This document shows positions 34,740 to 41,731 of a stretch of DNA of 41,731 bases, piece after piece (position 1 is the stretch's first letter; each line of letters opens with the position of its first letter). The translations under genes and the position numbers were made by a program. The notes below the pieces were generated by a model. The model had not been told where the DNA came from. It searched no databases and saw only the letters and a program-made list of their open reading frames with translations. This DNA comes from Bacteroidota bacterium (GTDB lineage Bacteria > Bacteroidota > Bacteroidia > Chitinophagales > Chitinophagaceae), in contig JABDGW010000022.1 of NCBI GenBank assembly GCA_013285855.1, positions 1 through 41,731 of the forward strand, given 5' to 3'.

Positions 34740-35195
34740 TTATTTATTTGAAAGCAAATCTTTAGCAGCAGCAGAAATTGCTTTTCCATCTGCTTTGCCC
34801 GCAAGCTGTTTTGTTGCTGCACCCATTACCTTTCCCATATCTGCCGGTGATGTTGCGCCAACCTGTTCAATAATCTTTTTAAGTTCTTCTTTTAATTCAG
34901 CTTCACTCATTTGCTTTGGAAGAAATTTTTCGATGATTGCAATTTCTTCCTCTTCTTTTTTAGCAAGGTCATCACGGTTTTGAGTGCGGTAAATTTCAAG
35001 CGAATCTTTTCTTTGTTTCAGCATTTTCTGCAGCATTTTATTTGCCGTTTCTTCTGAAACTTCACCGTTGGCGCCGGGTTCCGTTTTTGCTTTTATAATT
35101 TCAGCTTTTATGGCACGCAGCCCGCGTAAACCCGCTTCATCTTTTGCTTTCATGGCGTCTTTCATTTCAGCCATTACCTGTTGTTCGAGGTTCAT
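34740..35195 (-). CDS. GatB/YqeY-domain protein
   Basis: A 151-aa helical protein resembling the tail domain of the GatB amidotransferase subunit. The order is LEQQVMAEMKDAMKAKDEAG, LRGLRAIKAEIIKAKTE, then a helical bundle with KRKDSLEIY-like (QRKDSLEIYRTQNRDDLAKK) and EEIAIIEKFLPKQMSEAE motifs, closing with GATSPADMGKVMGAATKQLA. Stand-alone YqeY proteins are widespread; tRNA-related function is suspected but not proven. It follows gldC after an unusual inverted repeat. Confidence 0.93.
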   Translation of the reverse strand: MNLEQQVMAEMKDAMKAKDEAGLRGLRAIKAEIIKAKTEPGANGEVSEETANKMLQKMLKQRKDSLEIYRTQNRDDLAKKEEEEIAIIEKFLPKQMSEAELKEELKKIIEQVGATSPADMGKVMGAATKQLAGKADGKAISAAAKDLLSNK

Positions 35196-35214: not shown

Positions 35215-35308
35215 AGTCCGAAAGTCGGAAAAGTCCGCAAGTCAGAAAGAATTTTTAATAACCAAAGTATGTCTTTCAGACTTTCGGTCTTCCTGACTTC
35301 CGGACTTT
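35215..35308. repeat. Four copies of a 17-bp unit as an inverted pair of tandem doublets
   Basis: The left arm 35215-35249 holds two tandem copies of a unit close to AGTCCGnAAGTCnGAAA. The right arm 35273-35308 is the imperfect reverse complement of the left, with two more copies. A 23-base AT-rich spacer separates them. The arms can pair along nearly their full length. The right edge touches the gldC stop codon; yqeY begins 19 bases beyond the left edge. Confidence 0.7.
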
Positions 35309-35651
35309 ATTTTCCTTCCTTCAATTGATTATCACGAAATTTCTGATAAAATGTTTTAGCAAATTCTTTCATTTCATCTGTAAGCTCCTGGTGATGTGTT
35401 GCACGATTATACGTATCGGCCATTGTAATAAAAGTCTGGTAAAAAAAATCTGCCATTTCATCTACCATCATTTCTTTTGTCCAAAGGTCAATGCGCATAG
35501 CCGTTTTTTCCATGCCATCCCAAAATGCAAGCATAAAAGCTTTTGCCTGTTGTGTTTCCTGTGTAGTTGTTCCTGTTGCATTCCATTCTATCTGCTGCGG
35601 AATTTTATCTTCATCTAATTTAACCTTTATCGTTATTGTTGAATGTTCCAT
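35307..35651 (-). CDS. gldC: GldC-like gliding-motility protein
   Basis: A 114-aa cytoplasmic protein without signal or membrane segment. The pattern ITIKVKLDEDKIPQQIEWNA, AKAFMLAFWDGMEKTAMRID, LWTKEMMVDEMADFFYQTF and MADTYNRATHHQEL follows GldC of flavobacteria, which enhances gliding in Flavobacterium johnsoniae. GldC is widely conserved in Bacteroidota that do not glide, so motility cannot be concluded. The nearby presence of PorG and T9SS cargo is consistent. It is followed downstream by the repeat at 35215-35308 and yqeY. Confidence 0.85.
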   Translation of the reverse strand: MEHSTITIKVKLDEDKIPQQIEWNATGTTTQETQQAKAFMLAFWDGMEKTAMRIDLWTKEMMVDEMADFFYQTFITMADTYNRATHHQELTDEMKEFAKTFYQKFRDNQLKEGK

Positions 35652-36859: not shown

Positions 36860-39520
36860 TTATTTTGCCACTATAAACTGGGTGCGTGCAATAATCATAT
36901 TGCTTTGTTCAGCAATAATCATATAAGTGCCTGGCAACAAGCCTAAGTTGTTTAATGAATAATTGTTTTTCCCTGCAGTGATACTGCTTATTGTTTCTGT
37001 TCTTAAAATCCTGCCTGTGAGGTCTGTAATTTTAATATTTACAGGTGCTGTTTTATTTACCTGCAATGCAATATTTGCCACAGAAGTTTTTACAGGATTT
37101 GGAGATACAGCAATGCTGTTTATACTAATGTTATTCGCTGAAGCAAACCCGGCAAATGTTCCGCCTGTAATGTTTACAGTATAATCTTCTGCTTCCCCAT
37201 CTGTAAATGTGCCGCAGGTTGTTGTGCGTGCACTTCCGTAATGCATAATAACACGCATACGTGTCGCGCCGCTTTTTGCTGTTGAAGGCACAGTAAATGC
37301 TTTGGTTACTGCAGCAGTACCGTTTCCTGTTGTTGCCTGCTCACCTGCATCAGTAAATACACCATTATGGTTATAATCAATATATACTGTCCAGTATTCA
37401 CGGTAAGATGAACCAGTGAATCCTGGCGTTAATGTTATACTTGCAGAACCACCCGCAGCAAGGTTTGTACTTAATGCTGTATAATCTCCATAACCGCTGT
37501 TATTGCCGCTTGTATTATTGATAGTTCCTAATACAATCTTATTAATATACTCATACGTTGTATTGCCTTTTGTAGTGCAATAGGTGATGCCGCCAGATGT
37601 TGACGTAGTAAATGAAGCCGCAGTACTGTATGCACTTGTGCTGCCACCAGAACAAGCAGATTGTACCTGGTAATTATAAGTAGTGCTTGCAGTAAGACCG
37701 GTTAAATTATAAGATGTTCCTGTAATGCCGCTAACAGTTGTCCATGTTGAAGAAGTGGATACTTTATATTGAAGATTATAACTTAATGCACCTGTTGCGG
37801 CTGCCCAGCTTACAGTAGCAGATGTGTTGGTAATTGATGATGAAGCTAAACCTGCAGGTGTATTACATGTGCCTCCGCCGCCGCCACCTGCTGTACCAAC
37901 GCCAACTGCATACCAGGCATTTTCAACCTGTATTACTTCGTTGGATGTTGCGCCATAAAGATCAGTGGCTGCATTAATACATGCAGTACGCCAGTCAGCA
38001 TATTGTGAAGTGGGTACAAGGTAAGTTGTATTGCTGCGGTAAATAATCTGGTCTGCCTCACTTAAACCAATACCGGTTACTGAATAAGCACTGCCTTTGT
38101 CGTTAGTTCCACTGCCGCCGGTTACCAATAAGTAAAACATAAAATTGCCTACACCGCTGTTAGTATGCACTCCATAATTATCCGCGCTGCTTGTAGTCCA
38201 ATATGTGCCTTTATACGTATCGGGCTGACCTTGAGAATTTGGGTTGGACATGCTTCGGATAATCCAATTCATATCATTACTCATCAGCCAGTTTACATCA
38301 GTAGGTTTGCTCCAGAACTGTACAGATTTTCCCATGATATCACTCATGCTTTCATTCATGGCGCCGGGTTCTTTGCTATAGTTTAATCCGGATTCTGATT
38401 GAGTAACCCCGTGTGATAATTCATGGCCTGTTACATCAATACCAGTAACACCGCCGGGGTTTTGAGTGCTGTTTGAACGTTTATTAAAATTCATCGCACT
38501 GCCATCCCAAAATGCATTATCTGTATAAGTAGGATCATTTACATAACTATATAATGCTGTGCCTGCATCATCATAACTATTGCGGTTAAAATTTGCTTTA
38601 TAATAAGCATAAGTTTGAGAAACACCGTAATGTGCATCCAATGCTGCTATGTTTGTTCCGGTTAAAGTCCAGTTAGCAGAACTGCTGGAATAATCAGTGC
38701 CACGTGACGCGCTTTCACCATGTAATGTAATGATGCCATTGCCTTTTGTATAATCTCTTAAACGATACGAAGAACCGTTAAGATCACTATGAATTGTTTG
38801 AGCGCCGCTATAAGCAGTATTTGCTGTGCCAGTTGCGTCAGAATAAAATATCTCATCCTTTTTGCCAAGCACATTACCGTTTAAAGCATCTACAAAATAA
38901 TATGCGCGGCTTAAAGGTTCTCTTGCATACACATCAACCTTATAACATAAGCGCAATTCTCTTGGGCTTACAGCATCTGCTCCACTATACCAAACAAGGC
39001 TTGCTTTTGGCGCATAGCTTGCTTTGGTATTATTGGTTTGTTCTTTTATACGTTGTTCCATACCTGCATCCTGCCATGCGTATACTTTGGCATTTACATA
39101 TTTTATAGCAATGCTTATGGCTTCGCTATTGGAAATTTTTTGTGATGAACGCTGGTCCATCATTTCATCAAAATCTGTAACGATAGTTCCGCCAAGGCTT
39201 TTTAATACACCATTTTTTGTGTGCGCTATATACATGGTATTTTCAACAGGAACACCTTTGTATGTTTGATAATAGCGATATTGAATAAACCCAAGTTTGT
39301 CTGATTCAGTTTTTTGTAAAACCAATTCTGAATTCTGATTAAGATCCAGCAATGATTTTACCTGCGCTGAATTGAACGATATAGGCTGGTTGTTATCAAC
39401 TGCAGTAAACTGTTTGCTGATGCCACGATCGCCGCGAATAACCTTGCTTACAAAACTTTGCGGATAAGCCTTAATAATAATAAAGCTTAATAATACAAGA
39501 GATAGAATTTTTCTTTTCAT
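36860..39520 (-). CDS. Secreted M4 (thermolysin-like) metalloprotease with FN3, GEVED and T9SS sorting domains
   Basis: An 886-aa extracellular protease. The order is: signal peptide (1-21), FTP and PepSY-like propeptide (about 50-220), M4 catalytic domain (about 240-545), fibronectin III domain (about 553-640), GEVED domain (about 648-784, with DYNHNGVFTDAGE and DGEAEDYTVNI) and a T9SS type A sorting domain (about 802-886). Zinc ligands are His366 and His370 of HELSHG and Glu390 of GAMNESMSD, spaced as in thermolysin; His452 in YGVHTNSG is the transition-state histidine. The propeptide is removed on activation, and the sorting domain after passage through the secretion system. A close paralogue lies directly upstream. 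Confidence 0.95.
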   Translation of the reverse strand: MKRKILSLVLLSFIIIKAYPQSFVSKVIRGDRGISKQFTAVDNNQPISFNSAQVKSLLDLNQNSELVLQKTESDKLGFIQYRYYQTYKGVPVENTMYIAHTKNGVLKSLGGTIVTDFDEMMDQRSSQKISNSEAISIAIKYVNAKVYAWQDAGMEQRIKEQTNNTKASYAPKASLVWYSGADAVSPRELRLCYKVDVYAREPLSRAYYFVDALNGNVLGKKDEIFYSDATGTANTAYSGAQTIHSDLNGSSYRLRDYTKGNGIITLHGESASRGTDYSSSSANWTLTGTNIAALDAHYGVSQTYAYYKANFNRNSYDDAGTALYSYVNDPTYTDNAFWDGSAMNFNKRSNSTQNPGGVTGIDVTGHELSHGVTQSESGLNYSKEPGAMNESMSDIMGKSVQFWSKPTDVNWLMSNDMNWIIRSMSNPNSQGQPDTYKGTYWTTSSADNYGVHTNSGVGNFMFYLLVTGGSGTNDKGSAYSVTGIGLSEADQIIYRSNTTYLVPTSQYADWRTACINAATDLYGATSNEVIQVENAWYAVGVGTAGGGGGGTCNTPAGLASSSITNTSATVSWAAATGALSYNLQYKVSTSSTWTTVSGITGTSYNLTGLTASTTYNYQVQSACSGGSTSAYSTAASFTTSTSGGITYCTTKGNTTYEYINKIVLGTINNTSGNNSGYGDYTALSTNLAAGGSASITLTPGFTGSSYREYWTVYIDYNHNGVFTDAGEQATTGNGTAAVTKAFTVPSTAKSGATRMRVIMHYGSARTTTCGTFTDGEAEDYTVNITGGTFAGFASANNISINSIAVSPNPVKTSVANIALQVNKTAPVNIKITDLTGRILRTETISSITAGKNNYSLNNLGLLPGTYMIIAEQSNMIIARTQFIVAK

Positions 39521-39819: not shown

Positions 39820-41731
39820 TTACCTGCTAACTACTAATTGTGTACGGCCAACAATAACGCCATTTTGTTCGGCAATAACCATAAATACGCCATTGTTTAA
39901 TTTATTACTACCGTTTAATACAACTGTGTTTTTACCAGCCTGCATATTTGCTGTATTTTGACTTACCAAAAGCCTTCCTGATAAATCTGTAATCTTTATT
40001 ATTACATCACCTTTATTTATTAAATTTAAAGATGCGCTGGCCACATTTGTTTTAAGCGGATTAGGCATTATTACAATAGCTGTTGATTTATTTTGCGCTT
40101 CATCTTCACTGGCCACAGCATTGAATTTACCGCCTGTTATTTTTAAACTATAATCTTCTACTTCACCATAATCCAGCATGGCGCAAGGGTCAGAACTGCT
40201 GCTTCCATAATTCATTTGTACACGCAATCTTGTTACAGTGTTTTTAGTATTTGCAGGCACCGTAAAGCTAAACGAAGTGGCGCCGGAACCGTCTGCATTG
40301 CCAATCAATTCTCCTGCATCAGCAAAATCCCCGTCATGATTCCAGTCAGCATATGTACTCCAGTATTCACTATACGCTCCGGCTTTAAAGCCCGGAGTTA
40401 AATAAATTGTATACGTGGTTCCGGCGGTTACGTTTGCTTTAAGATTCGTAAAGTTGCCATAACCGCCATTGTTACCGCTTGTATAATTAAGATTGGAAAG
40501 CTGCATACGATTAATATACTCATACTCAGAAACAGAACTATACGAAGCGCAGTAATTGTCTCTTGGGTTACTTAAAGCAGAGAAAGTATATGCTTCGCTA
40601 AATGCACTTTTATTTGCATCAACACATTGGTTCTGTACTTTAAAATCATAAGAATAACCGGGTGTTAAATTATCAAGGCTGTAAGAATTTGTTGTAAGGT
40701 TTTTTACGATTTTATATTTGGCTTCTGTAGAAAGTTTCCATTCAAGATTATAACCATGTGAACCAGGCACTACCTCCCAATTTAAATCGGCTTTAATTCT
40801 TGTAACGTTTGAAACAGAAAGCCCTGTTGGAACATCACAGCCTGAGGCCTCTGTGCCGATGCCTACTGCATGAAAAGCATTTCTAACCTGGTCAACTTCC
40901 TTTGAATTTGCGCCATATAAATCTGCAGCAGCATTTATACAAGCACCACGCCAATCTATATACTGCGATGCTGATGTTAGATAAACAGTTTGAGAACGAT
41001 AAATAATTTGATCTGCTTCTGCTAACCCAATACCTGCAACAGAATATGATTCACCATTGTCGTTAGCTCCACTTCCACCCGTTACCAACAAATAAAACAT
41101 AAAGTTTCCAACACCACTGTTATAATGCACACCGCCATTATCGCCACCACCGGTATACCACAAAGTACCTTTATAAGTATCAGGCTGACCTTCAGCATTC
41201 GGATTACTCATATCGCGAATAACCCAATTCATATCATTACTCATCAGCCAGTTTATATCTGTTGGCTTTGCCCAAAACTGAACTGACTTTCCCATAATAT
41301 CACTCAGGCTTTCATTAATAGCACCTGATTCATAACTATAATTCAAAGCGCAACTTGTTTGCGTTACTCCGTGTGTTAATTCATGACCTGTTACATCAAT
41401 ACCTGTAACACCTGTGGAGTCACCGGTTGAACGTTTATTAAAATTCATTGCAGATCCATCCCAAAAAGCGTTGTCTATATAAGTAGGATCATTAACATAA
41501 CTATACAAGGCTGTGCCTGCACCATCATAACTGTTTCTGCCGAAAGTTGCCATGTAAAAAGAATAAGTTTGTTCAACACCAAAATGTGCATCCAATGCAG
41601 CTTTATCAAAGCCTGTTAAATTCCAGTTTTTTGTTGTGCTGTTGTAATCGTTGCCGCGCAACCCGCTTTCACCATGTAACGTAATTATATCGCTTTTGTG
41701 TGAATAATCCCTCAATCTGAAATTTCCCTGC
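39820..41731 (-). CDS. Second M4 metalloprotease with FN3, GEVED and T9SS sorting domains (5' end outside window)
   Basis: The frame is open to the last base, so the signal peptide and propeptide lie beyond the window; the ATG-less beginning GNFRLRDYSHKSD aligns with SSYRLRDYTKGNG of the neighbouring protease. Visible are the M4 domain with HELTHGVTQT and GAINESLSD, spaced as in thermolysin, and the histidine of GGVHYNSGVG. A fibronectin III domain, a GEVED domain (DWNHDGDFADAGE, DYGEVEDYSLKI) and a C-terminal sorting domain (IVIMPNPLKTNV...) follow. It is a full paralogue of the protein at 36860-39520 along every domain, so a tandem duplication is the simplest origin. It has its own terminator. 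Confidence 0.93.
   Translation of the reverse strand, partial: QGNFRLRDYSHKSDIITLHGESGLRGNDYNSTTKNWNLTGFDKAALDAHFGVEQTYSFYMATFGRNSYDGAGTALYSYVNDPTYIDNAFWDGSAMNFNKRSTGDSTGVTGIDVTGHELTHGVTQTSCALNYSYESGAINESLSDIMGKSVQFWAKPTDINWLMSNDMNWVIRDMSNPNAEGQPDTYKGTLWYTGGGDNGGVHYNSGVGNFMFYLLVTGGSGANDNGESYSVAGIGLAEADQIIYRSQTVYLTSASQYIDWRGACINAAADLYGANSKEVDQVRNAFHAVGIGTEASGCDVPTGLSVSNVTRIKADLNWEVVPGSHGYNLEWKLSTEAKYKIVKNLTTNSYSLDNLTPGYSYDFKVQNQCVDANKSAFSEAYTFSALSNPRDNYCASYSSVSEYEYINRMQLSNLNYTSGNNGGYGNFTNLKANVTAGTTYTIYLTPGFKAGAYSEYWSTYADWNHDGDFADAGELIGNADGSGATSFSFTVPANTKNTVTRLRVQMNYGSSSSDPCAMLDYGEVEDYSLKITGGKFNAVASEDEAQNKSTAIVIMPNPLKTNVASASLNLINKGDVIIKITDLSGRLLVSQNTANMQAGKNTVVLNGSNKLNNGVFMVIAEQNGVIVGRTQLVVSR

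Follow-up and report, generated by a model that had tools for sequence, protein, structure and literature searches.

Inverted octamer arrays shared by intergenic hairpins and S23 genes of Chitinophagaceae point to a two-part genetic element

INTRODUCTION

The nearest known relatives of the element described here are the intervening sequence (IVS) of Coxiella burnetii and the published intergenic heptamer arrays. In the portion of the Coxiella report cited here (PMC4990558), the 23S rRNA IVS comprises an S23p open reading frame (ORF), a stem and a variable number of tandem heptamers (GACAGAT) in the 5' arm. It is cut by RNase III and scattered in distribution, its ORF is described as decaying, and S23p is described as of no known function. 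TAACTGA heptamer arrays occupy intergenic regions of Beggiatoaceae, cyanobacteria and Bacteroidetes, with no transfer mechanism evident to the author (MacGregor 2015, PMC4679880); S23, four helix, Avd and intervening sequence are not mentioned in the main text of that article. The portion of PMC10053308 cited here likens PF05635, the S23 family, to Avd, a related four-helix protein that is an accessory of diversity-generating retroelements (DGRs).

Here we analyze a hairpin of repeated octamers in a Chitinophagaceae genome (GCA_013285855.1) and compare it with these systems. The window, meaning the whole stretch of DNA that was analyzed, is the 41,731 nt of contig JABDGW010000022.1, positions 1 to 41,731 of the forward strand.

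RESULTS

Build and fold of the hairpin between gldC and yqeY. An inverted array of 94 nt (window 35215-35308) lies between two minus-strand genes, gldC (35307-35651; TIGR03515, PF19937) and the next gene on that strand, a yqeY-like gene (34740-35195, start at 35195; PF09424). The original prediction described a 17-bp unit in four copies, two in tandem facing two inverted. This layout is confirmed, with tandem copies at 35215-35231 and 35232-35248 that are 88% alike and inverted copies opposite, ending at 35308, but the better description of the unit is the octamer AG(T/a)CnGnA (AGWCnGnA), four to an arm and four facing inverted (35215-35306), the 17-nt unit being two octamers plus one extra A. 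On the plus strand the left arm (35215-35250) reads AGTCCGAA (35215-35222), AGTCGGAA (35223-35230), the extra A (35231), AGTCCGCA (35232-35239) and AGTCAGAA (35240-35247), followed by AGA. A loop of some 21 to 24 nt (35251-35271, its boundary uncertain by about 3 nt) leads to the right arm (35272-35308), which on the minus strand reads, from the outside in, AGTCCGGA (35299-35306), AGTCAGGA (35291-35298), AGACCGAA (35283-35290) and AGTCTGAA (35275-35282). As had been noted, the hairpin touches gldC, whose stop codon (35309-35307, minus strand) adjoins the outermost octamer.

Folding, proposed with the prediction as a check, gave -40.4 kcal/mol for RNA of the minus (gene) strand, compared to -20.6 +/- 3.2 for shuffles (z -6.25), and z -5.39 for the plus strand, with none of 200 shuffles folding as well on either strand. 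The predicted lack of a normal T-tract also held: by eye, no T run follows the arm of this copy on either strand, and the G+C-rich stem followed by a T run that marks an intrinsic terminator is not seen. Rfam returned only sub-threshold matches to miRNA hairpins, which were set aside as generic. In a coarse scan the hairpin was the only compact inverted array of the window, a score of 16 being reached only by the two steps that cover it; a whole-window repeat scan at the default seed of 9 missed it. Elsewhere in the window are two adjacent and similar large proteins: in that at 36860-39520 a domain scan recognizes a thermolysin-type M4 peptidase, fn3 and GEVED domains and a match to a secretion tail, and that at 39820-41715 appears from sequence to be its paralogue.

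Dispersal of the octamer. A search of the genome (3.15 Mb in 157 contigs, 67% complete) for the pattern AGTCnGnAAGTCnGnAAG, with one mismatch allowed, found 29 matches at ten sites, while the reversed pattern used as control gave one. The gldC-yqeY gap retains a version of the array in two of the three comparable relatives in the genus, G197 (gap of 75 nt) and G007 (66 nt), each with about two units per arm, some degenerate; that of G107 measures 37 nt and holds no units. In G178 gldC has a different neighbor and the gap is not comparable, and three of the eight genus genomes lack a gldC match. The reading of the hairpin as a dispersed, non-autonomous repeat is thus upheld, the unit being neither confined to this gap nor replaced by unrelated sequence in all orthologous gaps. 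An alignment of the gap from four genomes revealed no clean boundary for a target-site duplication or an empty site.

Three perfect AGTC units occur in 22 of 195 family genomes, very unevenly and up to dozens per genome. Among 60 AGTC sites fetched from seven genomes, a single one (L209) holds an S23 gene, and 30 are two-armed with a loop of at most 54 nt. All 15 sites fetched from G149 have this compact form (L209 being counted for its gene-less neighbor), and the hairpins of G149 and G074 mostly have three or four units per arm and loops of 17 to 25 nt, as in the window; G103 has no compact two-armed hairpin among its 12 fetched sites despite its matching S23. Array centers fall inside an ORF of at least 120 aa at 9 of the 60 sites, compared to 814 of 1,200 random positions. 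Some gene-less hairpins of G149 (L204, about 670-810; L206; L212) are nested in a larger repeated inverted sequence, TTGCGTCGCACACTTGTAC ... GTACAAGTGTGCGACGCAA, and a similar sequence stands beside AGTC arrays in G103 (L187, L195). One intergenic region of G103 (L187, 700-800) carries several arrays of different words side by side, and such sites look as if they attract further arrays.

An S23 gene between arms of the same type. Contig C28 of the same genome carries arms of the window type separated by some 400 nt, and between them a gene for a 117-aa S23/four-helix-bundle protein (PF05635, E = 1e-34; TIGR02436; PDB 2gsc, E = 1.8e-14, and 2rld, E = 1e-6). This copy is flanked by an aguA-like and an aguB-like gene. 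The genome has four more S23 genes, of which three likewise lie between inverted arrays of short words, the words being different ones, and the fourth (L070) is at a contig end. At L005 (1065-1123) the aguA-like gene has its longest ORF beginning within an octamer array, and the repeat would be read as protein if the start were called automatically. Decaying S23 copies exist beside intact ones, as seen from an S23 match of this genome with two internal stops (L069, 1486-1836) between TAGTTCATGG-type arms. In G074 an S23 copy with one stop is accompanied by two sets of AGTC arrays in both orientations (L240, 1371-2061), which suggests nested or repeated insertion.

In general, S23 genes are flanked by inverted arrays of words 7 or 8 nt long, and this extends to other phyla. 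S23 proteins (PF05635) are present in 150 of 195 sampled family genomes, with up to 17 in one genome. For each locus the upstream flank of 160 nt was aligned to the reverse-complemented downstream flank of equal length, and a score of at least 18 was taken as the threshold. The family set of 93 loci, made up of 34 search loci minus L089 (short flank) plus 60 fetched loci, with L070 excluded, consists of top PF05635 scorers rather than a random draw. In this set 71 loci reached the threshold and 22 fell below it, compared to 6.6% of mismatched flank pairs, 2.4% of shuffles and 1 of 163 displaced positions. The link is weaker in wider samples (107 of 110 loci used; L337, L355 and L371 dropped), where about half of the loci fall below the threshold, yet it is well above control: 23 of 46 in named Bacteroidota (mismatched, 6.1%), 13 of 31 in named members of other phyla (1.5%) and 16 of 30 in a phylum sample (2.6%).

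The arms themselves were examined in 79 loci admitted at a cut-off of at least 16, a set without a separate control, the controlled figures being those of the 93-locus flank test. With stricter gap costs, the best period was 7 or 14 in 64 of these loci and 8 in 13; in 75 that period was reached by at most 5 of 100 shuffles. The strand reading inward has more G than C in 74 of the 79.

Word type follows S23 clade. Across the 79 loci the distance between S23 proteins correlates with the 4-mer distance between arms (Mantel r = 0.52, reached in none of 5,000 permutations), a result that could come from co-descent of one element alone. Arm similarity falls from 0.73 at S23 identities above 70% to 0.60 at 60-70%, 0.31 at 50-60% and 0.17 below. 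Exact AGTCnGnA arms flank 13 of 14 S23 loci that are at least 66% identical to the C28 protein and none of 16 at 63% or less; this cut was chosen by eye, where identities drop from 67 to 63%, and partial alignments of at least 69 residues were counted. Since 12 of the 14 C28-type loci lie between aguA- and aguB-like genes, the gene copy is mostly inherited in place and moves rarely. That the unit can move follows from G013, where the complete AGTC element, arms included, is at recO-carB instead. Purifying selection acts on the AGTC-type S23 genes, whose dN is 0.07-0.30 and whose dS exceeds 1 or is saturated.

Dispersed arrays and the matching S23. Genomes with a matching S23 tend to carry dispersed arrays, and this applies to two unrelated words. 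Of 195 genomes, 15 have a C28-type S23. AGTC arrays occur in 10 of these 15 compared to 12 of the 180 others (Fisher, 8e-8), or, counted by genus, in 10 of 12 compared to 8 of 89 (1e-7). For a second word, AGGCAnnR, arrays occur in 8 of 9 genomes with a matching S23 (at least 64% identity) and in 6 of 186 without. Arrays belonging to the S23 element itself are part of these totals, and some genomes with low counts are accounted for in this way. Five of the 15 genomes with C28-type S23 have no three-unit AGTC array, and 12 of the 22 AGTC-positive genomes have no C28-type S23 at 66% identity or above, the array-rich G085, G080 and G112 (the last only 69% complete) among them. As a guess, satellites may persist after their master is lost, or another S23 may serve them.

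A natural experiment is provided by G021, in which the S23 locus has switched its word and the dispersed hairpins carry the new one. Its S23 gene is at the same aguA-aguB locus with arms of the 7-nt word GGTCnGG; the genome has no AGTC arrays, and GGTCnGG arrays stand at three other sites, two further matches resembling chance. The sister genome G118, without a G021-type S23, has no GGTCnGG arrays. A single GGTCnGG match was observed in G103.

What is conserved in the word. Solo hairpins and S23 arms have one unit profile in common. Under a counting rule that requires five of six fixed letters, octamer positions 1, 2, 4, 6 and 8 are near-invariant. Under the same rule, and in solos as in S23 arms, position 3 is almost always T or A, with C or G very rare, and T is uncommon at position 5 (2%, 0% and 10% in the three sets compared). 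At the variable positions, 24 hairpins (5 of 29 having been dropped for low score) gave matches in true arm pairs at 30 of 77 for N5 and 39 of 78 for N7. Arms swapped within a genome matched at 196 of 387 and 222 of 389, and arms swapped between genomes at 603 of 1,287 and 568 of 1,284. Because true arm pairs show no excess of matches over arms taken from different hairpins, the conserved feature is the word itself, read inward from both sides, and not complementarity of arm to arm at the variable positions. An origin of the hairpins by copying of one arm onto the other was rejected on the same comparison. A kept word is the outcome that would be expected of a reader protein, and not of selection for a perfect stem.

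DISCUSSION

The hairpin of the window is real and dispersed, and we take it for a gene-less copy of an S23 element that is IVS-like in build. As in the 23S rRNA IVS, the ends form a long stem, evident from the folds and the flank test, and at C28 the inverted arms enclose an S23p-coding loop, while the window copy is gene-less. By location neither is an IVS, which resides in rRNA genes, whereas the window copy is at gldC-yqeY and the C28 copy at aguA-aguB; the S23 elements described here are intergenic and dispersed and have gene-less copies. The Coxiella ORF, moreover, is decaying according to the portion of PMC4990558 cited here, unlike the AGTC-type S23 genes with their purifying selection. 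The TAACTGA arrays, as described in the main text of MacGregor 2015 (PMC4679880), resemble the present ones in being dispersed, intergenic, tandem 7-nt words with a patchy distribution between genomes, and differ in being direct repeats. As to DGRs, visual inspection of the ORFs of 50 aa or more in 2.8 kb around the C28 element showed no reverse transcriptase or template/variable repeat. In the literature searched, which excluded preprints and most subscription journals, we found no statement that S23 genes are generally enclosed by inverted arrays of short words or accompanied by gene-less satellites, and we claim no priority.

The arms around the C28 gene, the generality of arrays around S23 genes, the match of word to clade, the co-occurrence of arrays with a matching S23 and the word switch in G021 together make it probable that the hairpin at gldC-yqeY belongs to an S23 element as one of its gene-less satellites. 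In complete form such an element is an S23/four-helix-bundle gene enclosed by a pair of inverted arrays, whose degenerate word has 8 nt, or 7 nt in most other clades. S23, which reportedly forms a ring in a published crystal structure, may bind the word, several copies at once, as RNA or DNA. The gene copy would then act as master, and gene-less hairpins of about four plus four units may have spread to intergenic sites and been kept there as binding sites or as passengers. Transcribed between gldC and yqeY, the window hairpin could be a substrate of RNase III or a binding site of S23. Judged from sequence, word recognition by S23 would be the most likely driver of the spread.

That the arrays are instead cis-acting RNA hairpins, serving as terminators or as processing or stability sites in host-preferred words, with S23 genes tolerating or captured by such sites, strikes us as unlikely. 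The strong RNA fold of the window hairpin, its position between two same-strand genes and the placement of arrays mostly outside long ORFs (9 of 60 compared to 814 of 1,200 random positions) fit such a role. This account would have to explain why word type follows S23 clade and why a matching S23 and arrays co-occur for two words; pairing at the variable hairpin positions is not optimized, and no T-tract follows the window hairpin. Less likely again is simple slippage, in which 7- to 8-nt tandem repeats arise and expand locally and S23 genes are recombination passengers without recognition. Unit number does vary among relatives at gldC-yqeY, as repeat number does in the Coxiella IVS in the portion of PMC4990558 cited here, but slippage does not account for the pairing of inverted arms, the recurrence of one word at many loci, the unit profile shared by solos and S23 arms, or the word switch in G021.

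REP/RAYT and MITE-type repeats are short, dispersed intergenic hairpins without a gene, and window-type hairpins resemble them in each of these respects. The original prediction had proposed a REP-like dispersed element, of which the dispersal stands and the membership in the REP family finds no support. Spread of the hairpins by a Y1 (IS200/IS605-like) transposase is very improbable: such transposases are present in 8 of 10 genomes examined, but none was found in G178 (same genus, 96% complete) or in the genome of the window (67% complete), both of which have hairpins, and of 20 Y1 loci scanned across other genomes none had an AGTC array within about 1.5 kb. The gene linked to these arrays is S23, which is not a known transposase to our knowledge, and the arms are arrays of a degenerate word. 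In a MITE the terminal inverted repeats would be those of a parent transposon; the hairpin has its arms in common with the S23 element.

Returning to the satellite reading, we extend it tentatively, and at slightly less than even credence, to S23/four-helix-bundle proteins as a whole. They would be sequence-specific readers of 7- to 8-nt words, one word to a clade; an S23 gene within its own word array would seed and maintain gene-less hairpins, which follow when the word changes; and the rRNA IVS would be a special case of a two-part selfish or regulatory class that crosses phyla.

The evidence points to a widespread two-part genetic element, composed of a gene copy and many gene-less copies. 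Intergenic heptamer arrays had previously been described without a proven partner, and the link between S23 and arrays gives each a testable one, a predicted word for the protein and a predicted protein for the word.
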